From positions 1-28,845 of the IMG/VR virus record IMGVR_UViG_3300029923_000343: a stretch of DNA of 28,845 bases, one strand, 5' to 3'. This document shows positions 4,013 through 14,005 of the stretch, piece by piece; position 1 is the stretch's first letter, and each line of letters begins with the position of its first letter. Position numbers and translations under genes: made by a program. This DNA comes from a virus. The notes under the pieces were generated by a model. The model had not been told where the DNA came from, made no database searches, and saw nothing but the letters and a program-made list of their open reading frames with translations.

Positions 4013-4041
4013 AAAATAAAAATCAAAACCCGCTTATTTAC

Positions 4042-4081
4042 CCGTTAAAAATCGATTTTATTTTTATATTATATTAATATA
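4042..4081 (+). promoter_or_regulatory. 40-bp repeated AT-rich element, copy 2; probable promoter of the RNA region
   Basis: Identical to 650-689. It lies 29 bp after the ATPase stop codon and directly before the long non-coding, structure-rich stretch. This is the position expected for a promoter that drives the structured RNA and tRNAs and possibly the DUF669 gene beyond. Confidence 0.6.
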
Positions 4082-4164
4082 AGATAGATAAGCAAAACGC
4101 AGTAATTTACCTTTAAGAAGTACTTTGGCATGATCCGAAGTATGTTGCTCGATAAAATATGATT

Positions 4165-4197
4165 CCGCGAAAGCGGCGGCAGCTGAGTAATCAGCTG
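4165..4197 (+). other. Two adjacent GNRA-tetraloop hairpins
   Basis: CCGC-GAAA-GCGG (4165-4176) is followed three bases later by CAGCTGA-GTAA-TCAGCTG (4180-4197). Both stems are perfect. GNRA loops often dock into receptors, so these look like tertiary-contact elements at the 5' end of the large RNA. Confidence 0.7.
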
Positions 4198-4262
4198 TTG
4201 TAAGTCCCCTAGTGCTTTCGAATAGCCGCGAAAGAACAAATACAACACTAGGAGATTTACAA
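4198..4262 (+). other. Nested RNA stem element
   Basis: TTGTAA (4198-4203) pairs with TTACAA (4257-4262). Inside, CCTAGTG (4208-4214) pairs with CACTAGG (4246-4252). Inside that, CTTTCG (4215-4220) pairs with CGAAAG (4229-4234). Three nested perfect helices with purine-rich asymmetric loops show a folded RNA and not a coding or spacer sequence. Confidence 0.7.
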
Positions 4263-4317
4263 CTGCTGATTAAGGGTTTCTTCCTAAAATTTTCCTTTCT
4301 TTAGCAGTTTGGATAGG

Positions 4318-4415
4318 TAGCTGGTTATTCAAGCCACTCAGACGGACAAAAATGTAGCTATATTATCCGTCCGATAATTATCCTGCATGGGCTGAGTGAC
4401 TTGAATAATCAGCTA
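4318..4415 (+). other. Long RNA stem with 24-nt arms
   Basis: Bases 4318-4341 pair with 4392-4415 over 24 positions, with one G-T wobble and one C-A mismatch. The 50-base head carries a smaller stem (ACGGA/TCCGT at 4342-4346 and 4366-4370) and a short palindrome at 4373-4382. It ends 7 bases before the first tRNA-like unit. There is no T-run, so it is a structural helix and not a terminator. Confidence 0.75.
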
Positions 4416-4422
4416 CTGATAT

Positions 4423-4516
4423 GAGAGTGTGATGCATGGTGACATACGAAGAGGCGCCCGCTGTTATTACAGTGACTTATCTCGGTACTACGGTTCAAAT
4501 CCGTACACTCTCACCA
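4423..4516 (+). tRNA. tRNA-like unit with encoded CCA; anticodon not assignable
   Basis: A 7-bp acceptor stem (GAGAGTG/CACTCTC, 4423-4429 and 4506-4512) is followed by A and an encoded CCA. The T arm is canonical: TACGG-TTCAAAT-CCGTA at 4489-4505. The interior, 59 bases, resembles a long-variable-arm (serine-type) tRNA but does not fold normally. The best anticodon-arm candidate is CGCTG-TTATTA-CAGTG (4459-4474), with a 6-base loop where 7 is standard, and the D arm is unclear. It may be a degenerate or highly atypical tRNA, or a tRNA-mimicking domain of the large RNA. Confidence 0.6.
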
Positions 4517-4552
4517 CGCGTTCCCGACGCGATTCGGCATGGTAAGGCCGAA
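4517..4552 (+). other. Two hairpins directly after the CCA end
   Basis: CGCGT-TCCCG-ACGCG (4517-4531) begins at the base after the tRNA-like CCA, and TTCGGC...GCCGAA (4533-4552) follows after one base. Hairpins abutting a tRNA 3' end suggest a processing border. Confidence 0.6.
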
Positions 4553-4580
4553 GTAAAATAAGCTTATGTTTCCCGGTGAT

Positions 4581-4661
4581 GGATCCTTGACCGTATAACG
4601 GAGTAATTCCATATTGAATCTGTGTATTGTATTTGAAGTATACACAGGTTTGGTAGGATCC
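4581..4661 (+). ncRNA. 81-nt cloverleaf-like element without a T loop
   Basis: GGATCCT (4581-4587) pairs with AGGATCC (4655-4661) as a 7-bp closing stem. Inside are three arms in order: CCG-TATAA-CGG (4591-4601), ATTC-CATATT-GAAT (4606-4619) and CTGTGTAT/ATACACAG with a 12-base loop (4620-4647). Size and layout copy a tRNA cloverleaf, but the conserved TTCRA T loop and D-loop GG are missing. It ends three bases before the next tRNA. It is probably a domain of the large RNA. Confidence 0.45.
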
Positions 4662-4664
4662 CAT

Positions 4665-4742
4665 GGTTCAGTAGTTCATGCATGCGGAAGAACAATGTGG
4701 TAGTAATACTGCAGTAGATGAGTTCGAGCCTCATCTGAACCA
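4665..4742 (+). tRNA. tRNA with 8-base anticodon loop; identity uncertain
   Basis: Acceptor stem GGTTCAG/CTGAACC (4665-4671 and 4735-4741) is perfect, with discriminator A and no encoded CCA. The D stem is GTTC/GAAC (4674-4677 and 4690-4693). The T arm is ATGAG-TTCGAGC-CTCAT (4718-4734). The anticodon arm fits only as TGTGG/CTGCA with two wobbles around an 8-base loop TAGTAATA (4701-4708). No 7-base-loop alternative pairs, so the anticodon is not assigned. An expanded loop is the kind seen in frameshift-suppressor tRNAs. Confidence 0.75.
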
Positions 4743-4755
4743 ACAATGATAAAGA

Positions 4756-4822
4756 GATTAGATGCCCAGAAGCCGATCGAAAGATGCAGGTGCGGATACC
4801 CAGGTGGTTAAGACATCTAGTC
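4756..4822 (+). other. RNA stem domain with internal GAAA hairpin
   Basis: GATTAGATG (4756-4764) pairs with CATCTAGTC (4814-4822), nine pairs with one G-T. The interior holds ATC-GAAA-GAT (4776-4785) and GGT-GCGGAT-ACC (4789-4800). It starts 13 bases after the second tRNA. Confidence 0.55.
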
Positions 4823-4861
4823 AATAGTCTGTGGAAACAAAAAGTCGTAAGACAGGGGACG

Positions 4862-4982
4862 CTCTAAACTTACAGTAGTGGGAAACGCCTTGCTGCGAAG
4901 TAACTTGCTATGTAGAACAATATGCGCTACACAGATTGGGATGTGCTATTGAACAAACCTACATCTTAGGTAAGCATGAGAG
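4862..4982 (+). other. Long-range RNA domain
   Basis: CTCT (4862-4865) and CTTAC (4869-4873) pair with AGAG (4979-4982) and GTAAG (4970-4974). Enclosed are CAATA/TATTG near 4918-4950 around CACA-GATTGGGA-TGTG, and ACCTA-CATCT-TAGGT (4957-4971), which competes with part of the closing stem. The pairings are plausible but individually short. Confidence 0.4.
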
Positions 4983-5066
4983 AATGGGTCCAGAATTGAT
5001 GTGCACTGCACTGTGTGTACAAACCAGCAGATAGGTGGAAAGCCTATAGTCATTGTTTTATTTTGC

Positions 5067-5129
5067 GTCTAAAGGCTGAGGTAAGAGGACCTACGTAAGT
5101 AGTTGATAGTGGAACAATAACCTTTAGAC
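5067..5129 (+). other. Perfect 9-bp stem with internal hairpins before the third tRNA
   Basis: GTCTAAAGG (5067-5075) pairs perfectly with CCTTTAGAC (5121-5129). Inside, two mutually exclusive hairpins can form: AGGT/ACCT (5079-5092) and CTAC-GTAA-GTAG (5091-5102). Competing folds inside one closed domain could be a switch or simply alternatives. It ends 10 bases before the tRNA. Confidence 0.65.
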
Positions 5130-5139
5130 AGTTTTACAT

Positions 5140-5212
5140 CCGAGATTAGTAGAAGTGGCATAACATGCGGGTTTAAGACCGCATAACGCAGGTTCGATTC
5201 CTGCATCTTGGA
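5140..5212 (+). tRNA. tRNA with 8-base anticodon loop (UAA or UUA anticodon)
   Basis: Acceptor CCGAGAT/ATCTTGG (5140-5146 and 5205-5211) has one G-T; the discriminator is A and CCA is not encoded. The T arm GCAGG-TTCGATT-CCTGC (5188-5204) is canonical. The anticodon stem TGCGG/CCGCA (5166-5170 and 5179-5183) closes an 8-base loop GTTTAAGA. Depending on which base is extra, the anticodon is UAA (leucine, codon UUA) or UUA (would read the stop codon UAA). The variable loop has 4 bases, unlike the long arm of bacterial tRNA-Leu. The D stem is weak although the loop has the conserved GG. Confidence 0.8.
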
Positions 5213-5262
5213 CAAGTGCTTAAATGCACATATCATCACGGGCTAAAATTTAGTGGGTGGAT

Positions 5263-5282
5263 AAGTTACGCCGTGGTAACTT
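5263..5282 (+). promoter_or_regulatory. Leader hairpin before the DUF669-type gene
   Basis: AAGTTAC (5263-5269) pairs perfectly with GTAACTT (5276-5282) around GCCGTG. Upstream, CTAAA/TTTAG near 5243-5253 forms another small stem. The hairpin ends 33 bases before the start codon, leaving the GTAGGAGG ribosome site free. It could insulate translation from the upstream structured RNA. Confidence 0.5.
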
Positions 5283-5315
5283 TGGTCGGGCGAAAGGATG
5301 GCGTAGGAGGATTCT

Positions 5316-6519: not shown

Positions 6520-7494
6520 ATGTTTGGTGATTATCAAGAGCAGACACAGTCAGCCTACATCAAGGAACATATTGCATTGACACCAGAACAAGCGATGTTG
6601 ATGGATTGGGGACTTGGTATCGGAGGCGAATCAGGCGAAGTACAAGATATTATAAAACATCACGTATTTCATCATGCCGATCTAAACAAGATGGAATTGG
6701 CGAAAGAATTAGGTGATGTTCTTTGGTATCTTACAGCTATTGCTGAAGCCACTGATATGAAGGTAGACGATATCGCCGATTTGAATTTGGCTAAAACTGC
6801 TATGCGTTATTCCGATGGGATAGCGGCAACAGCTTTAAAAGAAAATCGGCAGGCTAAAGATGAGTTGTTTAAAGCTTCCATTCCTTATCGGGTTATTTCA
6901 TCGCGTATTACGCATTCAAAGGCGCCGATGAATATTATCTTTGTTGGTCCGGATGGTGGAGGCAAAACGACACTGGCAAAAGCGGTAGCGGAAAAGGTCG
7001 GATTCAAATATCAAAAGTGTGATTGGCGTCAAGAGGATAAGCCTGAATTGGCTGTTTCTTTATTAGAATCACAAATTGATGTTGTTTATGACCGTTTCTA
7101 TTGGCCAGACGAAGCAATCTATAGCAAGGTCAAGAAAATTGATATGCCCGCCGAATATTGGAAAAAATTCGATAAGGTAGTCGAGCTTCTTTGTGATTAC
7201 AACACCCTAATTATTTATGTCGACGCTTCAGAAGCAATTTTGCGCGCGCGTAGTAAGGTATGGGCAGATGATTACATAAACGTCAATCAATTGGAAACAA
7301 TTAAGAGGCAATATGCCGGATGGCTTCGATATCTGGAAACCATCCGTATTTCAACGATGAAGATAGATACTTCAACCATTCTCCCGGAGTCAGCTGAGTT
7401 CGACATGCTTGTTACAGGCTGCGTCGAGGCAATCAAAGCAGGACAAAAAGTTTATGCACGTGTGTTAGTTGAGGGTGAAATCGATGAGGGCTAA
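6520..7494 (+). CDS. MazG-like pyrophosphohydrolase fused to a nucleoside monophosphate kinase-like domain
   Basis: 324 aa, AGGAGG ribosome site. Residues about 25-105 are a MazG-type all-alpha NTP pyrophosphatase: G-E-x-G-E-V-Q-D (E-x-x-E) followed by E-L-G-D-V-L-W-Y (E-x-x-D), the metal-binding set of that family. Residues about 143-300 are a P-loop kinase of the thymidylate-kinase type: Walker A G-P-D-G-G-G-K-T-T, then D-R-F-Y-W-P-D (the DR motif of dNMP kinases) and a lid-like region with R-A-R-S-K. The fusion could hydrolyse one nucleotide triphosphate and phosphorylate a monophosphate product. It is the first gene of the preQ0 operon and overlaps the transporter gene by 11 bases. The substrate is not shown by the sequence. 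It may tune the dNTP pool for replication of modified DNA; that is inference. Confidence 0.8.
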   Translation: MFGDYQEQTQSAYIKEHIALTPEQAMLMDWGLGIGGESGEVQDIIKHHVFHHADLNKMELAKELGDVLWYLTAIAEATDMKVDDIADLNLAKTAMRYSDGIAATALKENRQAKDELFKASIPYRVISSRITHSKAPMNIIFVGPDGGGKTTLAKAVAEKVGFKYQKCDWRQEDKPELAVSLLESQIDVVYDRFYWPDEAIYSKVKKIDMPAEYWKKFDKVVELLCDYNTLIIYVDASEAILRARSKVWADDYINVNQLETIKRQYAGWLRYLETIRISTMKIDTSTILPESAEFDMLVTGCVEAIKAGQKVYARVLVEGEIDEG

Positions 7495-8203
7495 AAAAGT
7501 CAATCGTGTAACACCGCTTTTCATGTTCTTCGGTATTCTCTTTACGGCCTGTATTTTAATTTCCAACATCATCGCAATCAAGCTGATTACTATCGGCCCG
7601 TGGACATTAACAGCAGGTGTTATTGTCTTTCCCATTTCATACATACTGAGCGATATCGTCGCAGAAGTATACGGATTCAAAGCTGCTAGAAGCATTATGT
7701 GGACAGCATTCGCAATGAATCTGTTAATGGTTATTATGTTTGAGATTACCATCGTACTTCCCGCACCAGTGTATTTTACATTATCCGGTGCCGTCGCTTC
7801 AGTATTAGGTAATACGCCCAGATTGTTAGTTGCTGGACTTACTGCTTATGTTTTAGGCTCCTATGCGAATGCCGCTGTGCTAAGCCGAATGAAAGTTCTT
7901 TCCGCAGCAAGACAGGGTAAGAAGGATATTGCTATTAATTCAAATAAGGGATTCGGTTGGCGTGCTATTATTTCTACTATTGTCGGCGAAACGATTGATT
8001 CATGTATTTTTATTCCTCTTGCATTTATAGGATCGGTACCAGCGGCGCAAATACCTTCGATGATTATTCTTCAGATTTGTGTTAAGACCTGCTATGAAAT
8101 TGTTGTGTTACCCATAACGCGTATATTGGTTAAGTGGGTAAAACAATATGAAAGTATCGACACATATGATATTGGCGAAAAGTATCATATTGTCGGCGAA
8201 TAA
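7484..8203 (+). CDS. yhhQ: Queuosine precursor transporter, YhhQ (VUT/QPTR) family
   Basis: 239 aa from the ATG at 7484, chosen because GAGGGTG lies about 6 bases upstream; it overlaps the preceding gene. Six or so hydrophobic segments are visible. The family signature is clear: a first membrane segment followed by S-N-I-I-A-I-K, then P-I-S-Y-I-L-S-D-I-V-A-E-V-Y-G and A-A-R-S-I-M-W, and a later G-E-T-I-D-S-C-I-F. YhhQ family proteins import preQ0, preQ1 or queuine through the cytoplasmic membrane. Beside the full QueD-QueE-FolE-QueC set this gives the phage two routes to the modified base: synthesis and scavenging. The length fits the family. Confidence 0.85.
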   Translation: MRAKKVNRVTPLFMFFGILFTACILISNIIAIKLITIGPWTLTAGVIVFPISYILSDIVAEVYGFKAARSIMWTAFAMNLLMVIMFEITIVLPAPVYFTLSGAVASVLGNTPRLLVAGLTAYVLGSYANAAVLSRMKVLSAARQGKKDIAINSNKGFGWRAIISTIVGETIDSCIFIPLAFIGSVPAAQIPSMIILQICVKTCYEIVVLPITRILVKWVKQYESIDTYDIGEKYHIVGE

Positions 8204-8214
8204 GGAGAATCGCT

Positions 8215-8658
8215 ATGGAAGTAACAAAAGAAGTCACATTTGATTGCGCGCATATGTTATCCGGCTATAAAGGCCTGTGTTCTAACCTACACGGCCACAC
8301 GTACAAATTACAGGTTACACTCTGCGGCACAGTAGATAGTGAAACGCATATGCTAATGGATTTTAATCTCCTGAAAGAGATGATCCAAGAAGAAGTTATG
8401 GCTAGATTCGATCATGCTACTGTGTTTAGCTCGCCTAAATATAGGAACTGCGTCGAAGAGGCCATATTCGGTACCTGCAGCATATACGAATTGAAGTTTT
8501 TCGAAATGCCGACTATTTATCCCAGATCAACAGCAGAGTGTATGGCACGCTATATTCAATCAAGATTCAAGCAACGCATGAACGGCTTGCGTCCAATTAC
8601 TATTTCGCAAATAAAAGTTAAGCTGTGGGAAACGCCCACATCTTTCGTGGAGGTATAG
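8215..8658 (+). CDS. queD: 6-carboxytetrahydropterin synthase QueD
   Basis: 147 aa. It converts dihydroneopterin triphosphate to 6-carboxy-tetrahydropterin, the second step of preQ0 synthesis. The zinc histidines are seen as C-A-H (residue about 12) and H-G-H (about 27-29), and the catalytic cysteine lies in L-C-S-N-L-H-G-H. M-D-F-N-L-L-K, F-D-H-A and P-T-A-E-C-M-A match conserved QueD segments (usually P-T-A-E-N). A short insert near residues 80-95 makes it longer than the common 120 aa. An AAGGAG site precedes it and it is 11 bases after the transporter. Confidence 0.9.
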   Translation: MEVTKEVTFDCAHMLSGYKGLCSNLHGHTYKLQVTLCGTVDSETHMLMDFNLLKEMIQEEVMARFDHATVFSSPKYRNCVEEAIFGTCSIYELKFFEMPTIYPRSTAECMARYIQSRFKQRMNGLRPITISQIKVKLWETPTSFVEV

Positions 8659-8660
8659 CG

Positions 8661-9308
8661 ATGTTTATAGCAGAGATTTTTGCCAGCGTACAAGGCGAGG
8701 GACATTATCTTGGCGTCCCGGCAGTATTCGTTCGTACTATGGGATGCAATCTCAAGTGCAGTTTCTGTGACACAAAATCAACATGGATTAATGCCCAATC
8801 AGGCGCGGCCAGAGCATTATCCGTAGCCAAAGTAGTTAGCGCAGTAAACTATGCGGCAGATGCAGCTAGAGAGTCATCGACTATCAAAGCGGAATTAGGC
8901 AGAACAATTCAACTTGTTGTGCTTACTGGCGGTGAACCTTGTTTGCAGGAGGATCTACACGCTTTGATCGATGCACTACATGGTGAGCATTATATTGTAG
9001 CCATTGAAACCAATGGTACGTTGGCTACTCCGTTGAATGCTGATTGGGTAACATGCTCACCAAAAGGTGATGCTAATTACATGATTAATGAATCATGCCT
9101 TCCGGATGAACTGAAATATGTTGTCACGGAAGACTTTGACGAGAAGGTAATTACCGAATCCATCAGGGATCGTTTCTTAGGCAATATTTGGTTACAACCA
9201 GATGGCTATCACATGCAACCGACTTGGGAAAAGTGTTTTGCGATTGCGCAATCTGATTCACGTTTGCGCGTCGGAGTACAATTACAGAAACTCATGGAGG
9301 TAAGATAA
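8661..9308 (+). CDS. queE: 7-carboxy-7-deazaguanine synthase QueE
   Basis: 215 aa from the ATG at 8661, 8 bases after GGAGG; an earlier in-frame ATG at 8625 lies inside queD and lacks a ribosome site. This radical SAM enzyme makes 7-carboxy-7-deazaguanine. The N-terminal [11 protein letters not shown] motif and the 4Fe-4S triad C-N-L-K-C-S-F-C (C-x3-C-x2-C) are intact. L-T-G-G-E-P (SAM-binding GGE motif) and E-T-N-G-T follow. It is followed by folE with a one-base TAATG overlap, so the two are translationally coupled. Confidence 0.93.
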
Positions 9309-9892
9309 TGGGTGAATATTTAACAGATTTGCATGAGCGTAGAGCAGCGGCAGTATTTGAATTACTGAATACGATTCCTGGTGAGTATGCTTCGCGTGAA
9401 GGCCTCCAAGAAACACCAGGTCGTGTTGCTCGTATGTATGATGAAATCTTCGGCGGATATGATATGTCGCCGGAAGCTATCTTAAGTAAGACTTTTCGCG
9501 ATGAAGAGCATAAAGAAATGGTCATTGTAAAAGATATCGATTTCTTTAGCCATTGTGAACATCACATGGTGCCCTTTATTGGAAAAGTGCATATTGCTTA
9601 CATACCAAATGGAAATTTGGTAGGTCTCAGTAAACTGGCGCGTCTTGTTGAATGTTATGCAAGACGTCTTCAGATACAAGAGCGCATGACTTCTCAGATT
9701 GCTGATGCGATTGAGGAGCAATTGAAGCCGATTGGTGTTATGGTTGTTATTAAAGCTGAGCATATGTGCATGGCAATGCGCGGTGTCAAGAAGCCGGGCG
9801 CCAATACCATTACCTCAGCTGTGCGGGGAGTTTTTCAAGATAATACCAATGTGGCCAGAGCTGAGTTTCTTAGCTTAATTGACTTAAAGTAA
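9308..9892 (+). CDS. folE: GTP cyclohydrolase I FolE
   Basis: 194 aa. It opens GTP to dihydroneopterin triphosphate, the first step of both folate and preQ0 synthesis. Zinc ligands appear as H-C-E-H-H-M around residues 79-84 and C-M-A near 156; G-L-S-K-L-A-R and the C-terminal M-R-G-V-K-K-P-G-A segment are family hallmarks. Length is normal. A phage copy beside queC, queD and queE indicates supply for preQ0 and not for folate. Start overlaps the queE stop. Confidence 0.95.
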
Positions 9893-9904
9893 GGAGCGCT
9901 TATT

Positions 9905-10588
9905 ATGAAGATTTTAGTTTTATGTAGCGGTGGTTTGGATAGTACAACACTATTGGCTATGGCTGCCAATGAAGCTGGCAATGATAATGTTGTTGCATTG
10001 AATATGTTCTATGGACAGAAACATGCGAAAGAGCAAGAGTTCGCCGTGTTCCAATGTGAAAAATATGGCGTCGAGTTGCTAAACGCTGATCTGTCCGAAG
10101 TCTTTCGCTTTAACAAAGATTGTTGTGCCTTATTGCAGGGAAGCAAAAGAGAGATCGCGCATAAGTCATATGCTGAACAGTTGGCTGAGCTTGGTGGCTC
10201 AGGCACAGTGTCCGCTTATGTTCCTTTTCGTAATGGCTTATTTTTGTCATACGCTACCGCCGTAGCAATCCAGCTTGAATGTGACGTAATTTATTATGGG
10301 GCACACGCTGATGATGCTGCCGGCAGAGCTTATCCTGATTGCACTCCTGAATTTATTGAAGCGATGCAGAATGCTATTTACGAAGGCACAGGAGGCAAAG
10401 TAAAAATGGAAGCGCCGTTCTGGAATAGTAATAAAGCGGGCATTGTTAAAATAGGTAAAGAGCTCGGTGTTGATTATGCACACACATGGAGCTGCTATGA
10501 GGGAAAAGAAAAACCTTGTGGCACATGTGGCACATGTATCGATCGTAAAGCGGCATTAGTCGCAAATGGTATCTATAATATAGATTAA
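9905..10588 (+). CDS. queC: 7-cyano-7-deazaguanine (preQ0) synthase QueC
   Basis: 227 aa. It turns 7-carboxy-7-deazaguanine into preQ0 using ATP and ammonia. The PP-loop S-G-G-L-D-S-T-T is at residues 8-15. The zinc cysteines are C-Y-E...C-G-T-C-G-T-C near residues 198-213. No glutamine amidotransferase domain is fused, in contrast to the Gat-QueC forms linked to archaeosine-type (dG+) phage DNA. An AAGGAGC site lies upstream, and an intrinsic terminator follows 10 bases after the stop. Confidence 0.95.
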   Translation: MKILVLCSGGLDSTTLLAMAANEAGNDNVVALNMFYGQKHAKEQEFAVFQCEKYGVELLNADLSEVFRFNKDCCALLQGSKREIAHKSYAEQLAELGGSGTVSAYVPFRNGLFLSYATAVAIQLECDVIYYGAHADDAAGRAYPDCTPEFIEAMQNAIYEGTGGKVKMEAPFWNSNKAGIVKIGKELGVDYAHTWSCYEGKEKPCGTCGTCIDRKAALVANGIYNID

Positions 10589-10598
10589 ACCGAAGATG

Positions 10599-10630
10599 CT
10601 GCTGGGGTTATTCCCAGCAGTATTCTTTTA
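10599..10630 (+). terminator. Intrinsic terminator after queC
   Basis: CTGCTGGG (10599-10606) pairs perfectly with CCCAGCAG (10613-10620) around GTTATT and is followed by TATTCTTTTA. The T-run is interrupted, so some read-through into the next gene is likely. Confidence 0.75.
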
Positions 10631-10651
10631 CGTTAAGAAGGAGAGAAAGAT

Positions 10652-11443
10652 ATGAAAGTAGCAACAATTTTGCCTCAGAATTTTTTAAACCTAGTTAAAG
10701 GTGATTCTTATCATATGTGCCTTGCCCATTTAATTGATAAGCCGGGTATGGAAAATTACACGCGCTTCTTTAAGAATGGTATCGCTGATGATAGTTATGT
10801 CATTATGGACAATGGACTGATTGAGGGTAATCCTCGCCCCATTGAAGAGCTGATTGAAAAAGCGGATATGCTCGGCGCGAACGAGTTGATATTACCAGAT
10901 GTCTTTAAAAACAGCGTGGAGACGATAAAAGCTGTGGGCGCGGCAATGTCGTATCTGGAAAACCATCCTACGGATATTAACTTGATGGCTGTACCGCAAG
11001 GTAAGAACCTTCCTGATTGGTTGTGCTGTGCAGAAATGTTATTGCAGTATCCAATCAAATGTTTAGGGATTCCAAAAGTACTTGTATCTATGGGTGGACG
11101 AGACGGCCGCTTACAAGCATTGGATGCCTTATATCAAAGATGTCCTGAGATAAGCGGATTGGACATTCATTTACTTGGCTGTTGGCAGACGCCGTTAGAA
11201 ATATTGACGATCGCCAAAGCGGAATCTCAGGGATTAATTCCGACAATTCGCGGAGTCGATTCGGCTATCCCTTATGTATATGCTCGTGCTGGATTACGTA
11301 TCAGCGATGATGATCGTCCAGACAGTGAGCCAGTTAATTTTGAACATGGTGAAGTTCAAAATGACTTACTGCTTGCCTTGAACATCGAAGCATGGCGTGA
11401 TTCCGCCAGACTTGATAAGAAAGATAATGTTTGGTTCCTATAA
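10652..11443 (+). CDS. dpdA: DpdA-like DNA-guanine transglycosylase (TGT superfamily)
   Basis: 263 aa, GAAGGAGAG ribosome site. The chain reads as a TIM-barrel protein of the phage DpdA type: a start with H-M-C-L-A-H-L, a strand V-I-M-D-N-G-L-I-E-G (an acidic residue suited to base exchange), A-N-E-L-I-L-P-D-V-F-K-N-S, M-A-V-P-Q-G-K and L-G-I-P-K, each near a strand end. It lacks the zinc site of tRNA-guanine transglycosylases, as do phage DpdA proteins. DpdA replaces guanine in DNA with preQ0. Its location straight after queC, with preQ0 synthesis and import genes in line, strongly supports the role. Sequence similarity among DpdA groups is low, so the exact subgroup is not assigned. Confidence 0.75.
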   Translation: MKVATILPQNFLNLVKGDSYHMCLAHLIDKPGMENYTRFFKNGIADDSYVIMDNGLIEGNPRPIEELIEKADMLGANELILPDVFKNSVETIKAVGAAMSYLENHPTDINLMAVPQGKNLPDWLCCAEMLLQYPIKCLGIPKVLVSMGGRDGRLQALDALYQRCPEISGLDIHLLGCWQTPLEILTIAKAESQGLIPTIRGVDSAIPYVYARAGLRISDDDRPDSEPVNFEHGEVQNDLLLALNIEAWRDSARLDKKDNVWFL

Positions 11444-11482: not shown

Positions 11483-14005
11483 ATGTCGTGTGCAAATTGC
11501 TCATGTAATCATTATCCGCGACTTGGTAATGCTGCAATAGATATACAGCATACTTATGATTTAATGGTCATTGGCGAATCACCCACAGTAGCAGAAACAA
11601 GGCAGAATATAATGATGGGTGGTCCTGGAGGACAAGTATTAAAGGATACCTTAAAAAAAGTTGGTATGCCTTATTCATCCGATTTGGTATATTACACTGA
11701 TGCTATAAAATGTTCTGTGCCTAAGAAAAAAGGGCAGAAGTTTCCGAAGGACGCACCAGGATGTTGTAGAGATTACCTCTTATGGGAATACCGCGAAGTA
11801 AAGCCCAAATTGATACTTGTCTGTGGTGCAGTTGCCTTGCAGACTCTTACTGGTAATGATAAGCTGAAAGTTACAGAAGAGTATGGCAGGATAAAAGAGT
11901 ATGATTTTCTCCCTGGCGTCAAAGTAATACCGGTAATGAATCCTGGTGTTTTACTGCATAAGCCGGGAGACTACAAACCCTTTTTGTCGATGTTTCAATT
12001 AGCGGCCACAGTCTTTAATGACGGCGAATCAACTGATCCAGGTGAAACTAAATGGATTGTCTGTGATACAGAGGATAAATGTCGTGATTTGTGGAAATTG
12101 ATGATGTCCCAATATAAAGCGGGTACATTTGAATGTGCCTCTTATGATATTGAAACAACGGGATTGGATTATCGAATCGTTGATTTTCTTGTTTTGGGCA
12201 TCTGTTTCAAGAAAAATTTATCCTATGTTATTCCACGTGAGATGCGCCATGTAGTACACAACTTTATTGCAGGGATACCTTGGAAATGTGTCTGGCAGAA
12301 TGGTAAGTATGATAAAAAGGTTATGTGGCGCCGCCAGCTTGGCAATGTACAGATCGATGAAGATACTGAGTATCAACATTATACTTTGGATGAGACATCA
12401 GCGCATGACCTAGGTTACTTGACAAAGACATTCTTAAATGCCAAGGCGTATAAGTACAAGATGAACCAGAATTGGAAAGTTGTAACACTGGAGAATTTTG
12501 AAACTTATCGTGAAGCTATCTATGAGCGTGTTGCCGTTGACTGCGATTACACATTGCAATTAAAGCAAGTATTGCAGAAGAAGCTCGAAGAGCCAGGTAA
12601 CGAGAAGTTAATGAATCTGTATAAAACACTTCTTATTCCTGCGGCGAACTATCTTTCAAGGGTAGAGCAAAATGGTATGCTGATTGATCCTGAGTATCTT
12701 AACGTACTGGATAAGAAATACACTATTCTACTTGAACAGCTGTTAGTTGAAATCCAGGAATGTGCTGAACCATTCTGGAATCGTGAAATGTACATGGAAC
12801 AGATGGGTGCAAAGTCTGCAAGTGATATCTTCAAACCGAGTTCACCCAAACAGATGTCTTGGATGGTGTTTCGTCGATTAAAGCTACGCCCCCGCATTAA
12901 GAAGGGGGAAAGCACAAACAAAGAGATACTCGGTTCTATTGAGAATCCACCCCCTCTTATTAAGAAAGTGCTTGAATATCGTACAGTGCAAAAAGAGCAT
13001 TCCACATATGTACTTGGTCTATTAAATGCACGTGATGAAGATGGGCGTGTACGAACGACTTTTAACTTACACATTACTGCTACAGGCAGATTGAGTAGTA
13101 AAGAGCCGAACGTGCAGAATCAACCATCTGCACATGGCGTTGGGAATATACGTAAAGCATTTATTTCTAAACCGGGATTTATCTTGGCGGAGATTGACTA
13201 TTCAGGAGCTGAGCTACGTTGGCTGGCTTTCATGAGCAAATGTCCGGTTCTATCTGAAGTATTTATTCAAGGGCGTAACTTGCATAAAGAGACAGCAACA
13301 ACCTTATTTGGGCCACACTATACACCACAACAGAAGATGCGTGCTAAAGCCGTTAACTTTGGTATCCCATACGGACGTGAGGCCCACTCCATCGCGGAGG
13401 AGTTTAATATCTCAGATGCAGAGGCGCAGGACATGCTCGATGCCTGGTTGGATAAATACCATGGTGCGCGAGACTATCTGAAATGGTGTGCTGATCAGGT
13501 AGCGTTAGGTAAGTATTTGGAAACTCCTTTCGGTAGGCGTCGTCGCTTTGGTTTAGTATCACCGCAATCTTTACACGGCTTACAGAATGAAGCAAAGAAC
13601 TTCCCAATTCAATCGGCATCTTCAGACACACTTCTTTGGAGTTGTATGCAAATGGAAGATAAGCTCAGAGATGACTATCAAACGAATATGTTAGATCTGA
13701 TACATGACTCCACTGTACTTGAAGTTCCTGCTGATCCACGTATCATACAGGCAGTGGGCACTTATGCTAATCACATAATGGTAGAGACACCAAAGAAGTT
13801 ATTCGATTGTCCTATTCCATTTACTACTGATTTTGAAATTGGCGTAAATTGGGGAGACATGGGCGGTGTAGAATTCGATTACAATGATCCGAATCCTACG
13901 TCTGGTGAAGTCATGCATATCGAAAACAAAGACGGCTCAATCACAGATATGACCTTTGCTGATTGGTATAAACAAGTAACACAGCCACAAATTTTAATTG
14001 CATAA
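11483..14005 (+). CDS. Family A DNA polymerase with N-terminal uracil-DNA-glycosylase-like domain
   Basis: 840 aa. Residues about 1-180 look like a family 4 (Fe-S) UDG fold: cysteines at 3, 6, 77 and 94/95, a G-E-S-P start and a C-terminal strand before N-P-G-V-L-L, where active enzymes have H-P-x-x-L-L. The 3'-5' exonuclease has D-I-E-T-T (residue about 221), N-G-K-Y-D and Y-E-R-V-A-V-D-C-D-Y-T. The polymerase motifs are A, I-D-Y-S-G-A-E-L-R (about 571); B, R-A-K-A-V-N-F-G-I-P-Y-G (about 620); and C, I-H-D-S (about 742), where most family members have H-D-E. UDG-like N-termini also occur in SPO1-type polymerases. This is the likely phage replicase. The UDG-like part is probably not a normal uracil excision enzyme, because its key histidine is asparagine. 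Confidence 0.9.
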   Translation: MSCANCSCNHYPRLGNAAIDIQHTYDLMVIGESPTVAETRQNIMMGGPGGQVLKDTLKKVGMPYSSDLVYYTDAIKCSVPKKKGQKFPKDAPGCCRDYLLWEYREVKPKLILVCGAVALQTLTGNDKLKVTEEYGRIKEYDFLPGVKVIPVMNPGVLLHKPGDYKPFLSMFQLAATVFNDGESTDPGETKWIVCDTEDKCRDLWKLMMSQYKAGTFECASYDIETTGLDYRIVDFLVLGICFKKNLSYVIPREMRHVVHNFIAGIPWKCVWQNGKYDKKVMWRRQLGNVQIDEDTEYQHYTLDETSAHDLGYLTKTFLNAKAYKYKMNQNWKVVTLENFETYREAIYERVAVDCDYTLQLKQVLQKKLEEPGNEKLMNLYKTLLIPAANYLSRVEQNGMLIDPEYLNVLDKKYTILLEQLLVEIQECAEPFWNREMYMEQMGAKSASDIFKPSSPKQMSWMVFRRLKLRPRIKKGESTNKEILGSIENPPPLIKKVLEYRTVQKEHSTYVLGLLNARDEDGRVRTTFNLHITATGRLSSKEPNVQNQPSAHGVGNIRKAFISKPGFILAEIDYSGAELRWLAFMSKCPVLSEVFIQGRNLHKETATTLFGPHYTPQQKMRAKAVNFGIPYGREAHSIAEEFNISDAEAQDMLDAWLDKYHGARDYLKWCADQVALGKYLETPFGRRRRFGLVSPQSLHGLQNEAKNFPIQSASSDTLLWSCMQMEDKLRDDYQTNMLDLIHDSTVLEVPADPRIIQAVGTYANHIMVETPKKLFDCPIPFTTDFEIGVNWGDMGGVEFDYNDPNPTSGEVMHIENKDGSITDMTFADWYKQVTQPQILIA

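Follow-up and report, generated by a model that had tools for sequence, protein, structure and literature searches.

A predicted phage 7-deazaguanine DNA modification module that combines a complete preQ0 pathway with a YhhQ-family transporter

Which modified base would a phage place in its DNA, by means of which enzyme, and what would a precursor transporter add to a locus that also encodes synthesis of the base? These questions are raised by six plus-strand genes, yhhQ, queD, queE, folE, queC and a dpdA-like gene, at positions 7484–11443 of the IMG/VR virus record IMGVR_UViG_3300029923_000343, a stretch of 28,845 bases that was analysed as a whole and is referred to here as the window. No kinship is given for the record, which has the appearance of a fragment and is probably an incomplete virus genome; its source is a virus of gut-type Clostridia. 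An initial annotation had described the six genes as collinear and closely spaced, and matches to Pfam, PHROG and NCBIfam confirm them in this order, all intact, with E-values so low that chance is ruled out. The queE/folE junction consists of a common TAATG, and the remaining gaps as far as queC span 2 to 12 bases. On sequence grounds, we regard the run as a phage 7-deazaguanine DNA modification module of a known kind.

The four biosynthetic genes encode the complete route from GTP to 7-cyano-7-deazaguanine (preQ0) that had been proposed for them, since each of the four passes a curated or strong threshold and retains its catalytic motifs, and the nearest solved structures are those of the expected enzymes. 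QueD (6-carboxytetrahydropterin synthase; 8215–8658; PF01242, E 1e-30), which matches QueD/PTPS entries of the PDB, displays readable CAH and LHGH motifs as well as the catalytic Cys, and its gene has a ribosome site, AAGGAG, at 8202. QueE (8661–9308; PF04055, 1.3e-10; phrog_2076, E 8e-40) contains the CxxxCxxC radical SAM motif and has QueE 6NHL (9e-24) and 4NJG as its nearest solved structures, while FolE (GTP cyclohydrolase I; 9308–9892; PF01227, E 4e-75; TIGR00063 above cut-off) retains its Cys/His zinc ligands within CEHH and EHMC. QueC (9905–10588; PF06508, E 1.5e-53; TIGR00364 barely above cut-off; PDB 2PG3/3BL5) presents SGGLDST and four cysteines and, at 227 amino acids, has no amidotransferase domain, in agreement with the annotated lack of a fused amidotransferase. 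The accompanying statement that the window contains no QueF or other preQ0-modifying gene holds for the families searched within the 28.8-kb record, ArcS not having been searched by family; the sole QueF match among the module proteins is FolE itself, with which QueF shares the T-fold. Because the record is fragment-like, these absences apply to 28.8 kb and not to the whole phage.

The dpdA-like gene (10652–11443) encodes a protein of 263 amino acids that matches phrog_20335 (function not assigned; 1.2e-10). Taken alone, the protein matches no model in Pfam or NCBIfam, single-sequence searches against the PDB return nothing useful, a single-protein scan of viral contigs finds no relative, and hhalign comparisons with single tRNA-guanine transglycosylase (TGT) or DpdA sequences are weak. 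Among isolated phages, tblastn reveals distant relatives in Weizmannia phage Youna2, Bacillus BSTP/BSP phages and Cellulophaga phage phiST, and in Youna2 and BSTP5 the gene is located within a que gene run, directly upstream of the DNA polymerase. An alignment of five dpdA-like sequences retrieves 76 loci from IMG/VR, and the profile built from 51 members finds the DNA-guanine transglycosylase 7UI4 as its best PDB match (1.9e-4), followed by an archaeosine TGT. The AlphaFold2 model (predicted local distance difference test score, pLDDT, 93.9) adopts the TIM-barrel fold of TGTs, ranks 7UI4, the DNA preQ0 insertase DpdA, at the top in Foldseek (3.1e-8), and aligns with TGTs in VIA-align with Z ~17 over ~240 residues at 3.7 Å. 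Residues D53, N54, G117, H173, G176 and D203 are invariant in the 51 sequences; D203 lies opposite the IDS/FDS motif of 7UI4 and 1IQ8 in the profile alignment, and D53 is equated by motif position, the superfamily having two catalytic aspartates, the nucleophile in a DC/DS motif and a second one in a DS/DN motif. No Cys follows D203 in the window protein, such that the C-terminal Cys3-His zinc site of tRNA TGTs is absent. Within the fetched flanks (~7 kb), at least one of folE, queD, queE and queC is present near dpdA in 73 of the 76 loci and all four in 43, and polA stands beside dpdA in 56. The profile match to 7UI4, the TGT fold and these neighbourhoods bear out the annotation of the gene and support its assignment as a TGT-fold DpdA-type transglycosylase, the predicted substrate of which is DNA. 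A name can thereby be given to a transglycosylase lineage that has no Pfam model and forms a PHROG of unknown function, and whose genes are linked to the pathway at over 70 loci of uncultured phages.

The same profile indicates to which DpdA lineage the window protein belongs. It finds no match in phages 9g or CAjan (DpdA1) at E≤1, and the hhalign comparison with DpdA1 is not significant, whereas Vibrio nt-1 (DpdA2) yields a weak partial match (2.5e-4, positions 94–179 of 250) and CPT_0056 of Campylobacter phage CP220 a full-length one (E 9.5e-32, positions 7–242 of 250). Nor does the profile match anything in Acinetobacter phage SH-Ab 15497 or Pseudomonas phage Iggy. By these comparisons the window DpdA is assigned to the CP220/phiST lineage and not to that of 9g/CAjan. 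The DpdA3 subfamily of Cui et al. 2023 reportedly comprises the DpdA proteins of phages with complete guanine replacement, and the CP220/phiST-type lineage probably corresponds to it. The distinction touches on the product: the deoxynucleosides of archaeosine (dG+) or of preQ0 (dPreQ0) were measured in phages of the 9g/CAjan lineage (PMC6884629), and the DNA of CP220 is reported, with reference to earlier work, to carry the deoxynucleoside of 7-amido-7-deazaguanine (dADG) in place of 100% of dG (PMC8306585).

The explanation that we favour, with moderate confidence, is that preQ0 is made by FolE, QueD, QueE and QueC and inserted into the phage DNA by DpdA, with YhhQ adding uptake of a precursor. 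The four enzymes would convert GTP via dihydroneopterin triphosphate (H2NTP), 6-carboxytetrahydropterin (CPH4) and 7-carboxy-7-deazaguanine (CDG) to preQ0, which DpdA, a transglycosylase of TGT fold, would exchange as the free base for guanines of the phage DNA after replication. The modified DNA would be poorly cut by restriction enzymes, phage guanine modification being a counter-defence against restriction, and YhhQ would provide additional 7-deazaguanine precursor from outside. The closest parallel in gene content is the phage dPreQ0 group (Hutinet 2019, PMC6884629), which shares FolE, QueD, QueE, QueC and DpdA with the window and, as far as the 28.8-kb record extends, the lack of an amidotransferase, and is predicted to contain dPreQ0; in CAjan and Rosebush, dPreQ0 was the product of this gene set (PMC6884629). 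The window differs from that group in the lineage of its DpdA, in the clostridial type of its QueC, and in having yhhQ within the same operon.

The window QueC reads GAHADDAAGRAYPDC at the site where E. coli QueC has GVCETDFSGYPDC, and a genome scan places it as an ordinary clostridial type that is often found in a queD-queE-folE-queC run like that of the window. It is 63–67% identical to QueC of Caloramator/Thermotalea and 53–60% identical to that of Ruminococcus, Lachnospiraceae and Selenomonadaceae; in trees, QueC, QueD and QueE of the window group with Caloramator, and FolE groups with phages. Ten genomes with a QueC of the window type all encode a TGT, and six have a QueF above cut-off; as the substrate of QueF is preQ0, QueC of this type most likely serves preQ0. 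The His-type motif, considered as a mark of 7-amido-7-deazaguanine (ADG) synthesis, was set back, since the same motif occurs in ordinary clostridial QueC alongside QueF. Several observations weigh on the other side. No QueF above cut-off was obtained from the four genomes with the closest QueC (Caloramator, Thermotalea), and the case for preQ0 is weaker for it; CP220, the nearest experimentally typed phage with a DpdA of this kind, has dADG (PMC8306585); the His at the GVCETD position is also present in the CP220 QueC, though its sequence is distant; and the window is probably a fragment. The annotated base, preQ0, is plausible: the QueC signature, being of the clostridial type found with QueF, speaks for it, and a DpdA of the CP220 (dADG) family speaks against it. 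Judged by gene content and sequence relationships, preQ0 is nonetheless probably the base in the phage DNA, the likeliest of those considered.

An alternative with a modest chance of being correct retains the same module and exchanges the base for ADG, either through release of ADG by QueC or through a preference of the DpdA lineage for ADG, possibly with near-complete replacement of G as in CP220. CP220 raises this alternative because QueC passes through ADG on its path to preQ0 (PMC5372724). The full-length profile match to CPT_0056, together with the lack of any in 9g and CAjan, is in its favour, as are the reported 100% dADG of CP220 and low dADG in other dpdA phages (PMC8306585) and the His that QueC has at the GVCETD position both in CP220 and in these phages; yet the same His type is normal for clostridial QueC in genomes that contain QueF, and the QueC proteins of CP220 and the window are only 37% identical. 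It is rather unlikely that preQ0 is processed further to preQ1, archaeosine or a derivative, be it prior to insertion or in the DNA, by an enzyme that is host-encoded or located outside the 28.8-kb fragment. Room for such a gene exists, in that the record is probably incomplete and the nearest relative measures 63.5 kb; phages with an amidotransferase or a QueF-like protein make dG+ or the deoxynucleoside of preQ1 (dPreQ1; PMC6884629), and the clostridial hosts of this QueC type often encode QueF. The nearest relatives of the window are G001 (63.5 kb; DpdA 57% and QueC 74% identical) and G002 (17 kb), and in G001, with the run mazG-kinase, queD, queE, folE, queC, dpdA and polA but no yhhQ, no QueF was found. 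The QueF matches in the window and its phage relatives were rejected as true QueF, the proteins being FolE. Among 20 mainly non-structural G001 proteins searched against Pfam, no known preQ0-tailoring enzyme was detected, the search turning up only ligase, ThyX, Prim-Pol, HNH and sigma-like genes, and these sequence data make a tailoring gene in the window phage less likely.

Two other readings carry very little weight. That the genes serve queuosine in tRNA, for host supply or codon use, with the dpdA-like protein acting as a tRNA transglycosylase, is highly improbable: the TGT fold is indeed also that of tRNA TGTs, and phages with preQ0 genes but without dpdA have been proposed to boost host queuosine (Hutinet et al., PMC6884629), but the zinc domain of tRNA TGTs is missing from the window protein, the nearest relative with a solved structure acts on DNA, dpdA is kept beside DNA polymerase, and CP220, which has a homologue, contains modified DNA. 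Scarcely credible is the reading in which the pathway genes of the window phage are decaying or serve as a backup, with the base mainly imported through YhhQ. Relatives with yhhQ have lost queD, queE and folE, and on two 7.7-kb fragments (L016 and L021) yhhQ and dpdA are all that is kept around polA; against this, all four pathway genes of the window are intact with their motifs present, and the 63.5-kb relative G001 keeps the pathway genes without yhhQ.

The role of the transporter within the favoured scheme, preQ0 synthesis and insertion by DpdA, calls for separate consideration, since a phage that encodes full synthesis would find a pump redundant. YhhQ (7484–8203) is a member of the QPTR family (COG1738) of queuosine-precursor transporters (PF02592, E 1e-40, 140 bits against a cut-off of 27.2; TIGR00697, 86.7 bits against 50.95), and its frame, taken from the ATG at 7484, would be longer from a TTG at 7469. 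The import of a precursor claimed for the locus is consistent with these matches; the claim left the precursor unspecified, and QPTR/YhhQ transporters vary in substrate (PMC11130926). Phage YhhQ was noted by Hutinet et al. without correlation to any group (PMC6884629), and copies in phages proved few when four phage YhhQ proteins served as queries. queD and folE are absent from all ten other yhhQ-bearing phage records tested (L016 included), most of which are fragments, and no locus other than the window was seen in this analysis to combine yhhQ with full synthesis. In G002, G030 and G033, queC lies beside yhhQ and a CP220-type dpdA, with polA; a Lachnospiraceae prophage (L160, 4564–7088) has a DpdA1-like gene (phmmer to 9g, 1.4e-13), queC and yhhQ in a row; and in G028 queC-yhhQ is adjacent to a partly masked gene in the same place as the DpdA1-like gene of L160 and with a similar motif. 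Cassettes of queC, yhhQ and dpdA thus recur with two DpdA lineages. This pattern suggests that the window yhhQ is part of a distinct, import-based form of the module, and its presence alongside full synthesis is unusual.

In such cassettes, import of preQ0 by YhhQ would leave QueC idle, which points to import of CDG by the pump or to use of host CDG by QueC. We tentatively propose, while considering it doubtful, that phage YhhQ carries CDG, the substrate of QueC, that transporter, QueC and DpdA may suffice for DNA modification without FolE, QueD and QueE, and that the window phage would have salvage as well as full synthesis. Gut genomes with QueC but without QueD and QueE are predicted to take up CDG (PMC6593275); CDG uptake is a prediction for gut bacteria, of which we found no demonstration in the literature. 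QueC is present and QueD gives no match in the genomes of Agathobaculum butyriciproducens, Anaerocolumna and the host of the L160 prophage, the last a metagenome-assembled genome that may be incomplete. We also note that two clostridial genomes (G023, L162 4944–5471, and G027) have QueC and QueF with no QueD match, and that a QueT transporter gene is located near queC in A. butyriciproducens. The CDG-salvage 'Ac' variant of queuosine metabolism in gut bacteria (PMC6593275) similarly keeps QueC without QueD and QueE, together with a queuosine-precursor transporter; that variant is bacterial, directed to tRNA and itself a prediction, whereas the phage cassettes would apply the same logic to DNA modification. 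The transporter-plus-QueC form offers a clean genetic lead on CDG uptake, so far predicted from gut-microbiome reconstructions.

Other loci lack queC. In 16 of the 76 loci (for example L043, L058, L064, L074, L080 and L081) dpdA, folE and queE are present without queC in the fetched stretch, which predicts CDG in the DNA of these phages. Cellulophaga phage phiST (L003) resembles the window in having the dpdA-like gene near queD, queE and folE, but differs in that queC is missing from its whole record; its own genes cannot give preQ0, and CDG is the expected product. CP220 shares with the window a homologous DpdA and a QueC, but its genes are scattered. In Weizmannia phage Youna2 and Bacillus phages BSTP5/BSP7, queC, queD, queE, folE, a kinase-like gene, the dpdA-like gene and polA form one run (as seen in Youna2 and BSTP5), with queC first in order, unlike the window, and no yhhQ in Youna2 or BSTP5; the paper describing Youna2 does not discuss DNA modification. 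Base supply is modular in these loci: the same DpdA family is found with full synthesis, with a pathway that ends at CDG for want of queC, with a transporter and queC, or with nothing but a transporter.

Directly upstream of the module, and kept in both near relatives (G001 and G002), is a plus-strand gene (6520–7494) for a MazG-like pyrophosphatase fused to a deoxynucleoside/thymidylate-kinase-like domain (PF03819, 2.4e-7; PF01712, 6e-6; phrog_229/761). Downstream follows a family A DNA polymerase with a 3'-5' exonuclease domain and an N-terminal uracil-DNA-glycosylase-like domain (11483–14005, plus strand; PF03167, PF01612, PF00476); genes of this dpdA family are as a rule followed by polA. 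Within the 63 bases that separate queC from dpdA lies a 13-bp hairpin with a short T-rich tail (10595–10624, plus strand), possibly an attenuator or terminator, although the hairpin count in the surrounding region is not above that of shuffles. In G001, the corresponding interval is occupied by a gene for a 95-amino-acid DUF4406-like (nucleoside deoxyribosyltransferase-like) protein (L009, 1294–1578), and in G011 (locus L015, 18015–19904) QueC appears as two matches in one open frame of 679 amino acids, as if interrupted by an insertion such as an intein. Elsewhere in the window, the left half encodes on the plus strand the end of a helicase, a PD-(D/E)XK exonuclease, a Sak4-like annealing protein and a DUF669 protein resembling single-stranded DNA-binding proteins; lysis and tail genes occupy the minus strand of the right half.

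Positions 4013–5315 constitute ~1.3 kb without plus-strand genes that contain two long, near-perfect hairpins (4188–4273 and 4314–4419) as well as tRNA-like pieces, fold far better than shuffles (z −5.7) and have only tRNA matches in Rfam; a related structured RNA is present at the same place in G002 (L010, 2728–3073; nhmmer 1.4e-19). A tRNA gene at 5140–5213 (plus strand) has an anticodon loop of 8 bases, for which ARAGORN gives the four-base anticodon ttaa, and could read UUA or UAA or be a degenerate gene. At 5064–5131 (plus strand), where no Rfam family matches the window, lies a conserved structured RNA of ~50 nucleotides, the core of which, GGCTTGGGTAAGAGGACCCTGTAAGTAGTTGATAGTGGAACAATAACC, is enclosed by an outer stem that varies. 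It is found in 30 IMG/VR contigs, in many of them within phage tRNA arrays, and nine of its 12 pairs covary (score 0.406 against 0.151 for shuffles, 0/500).

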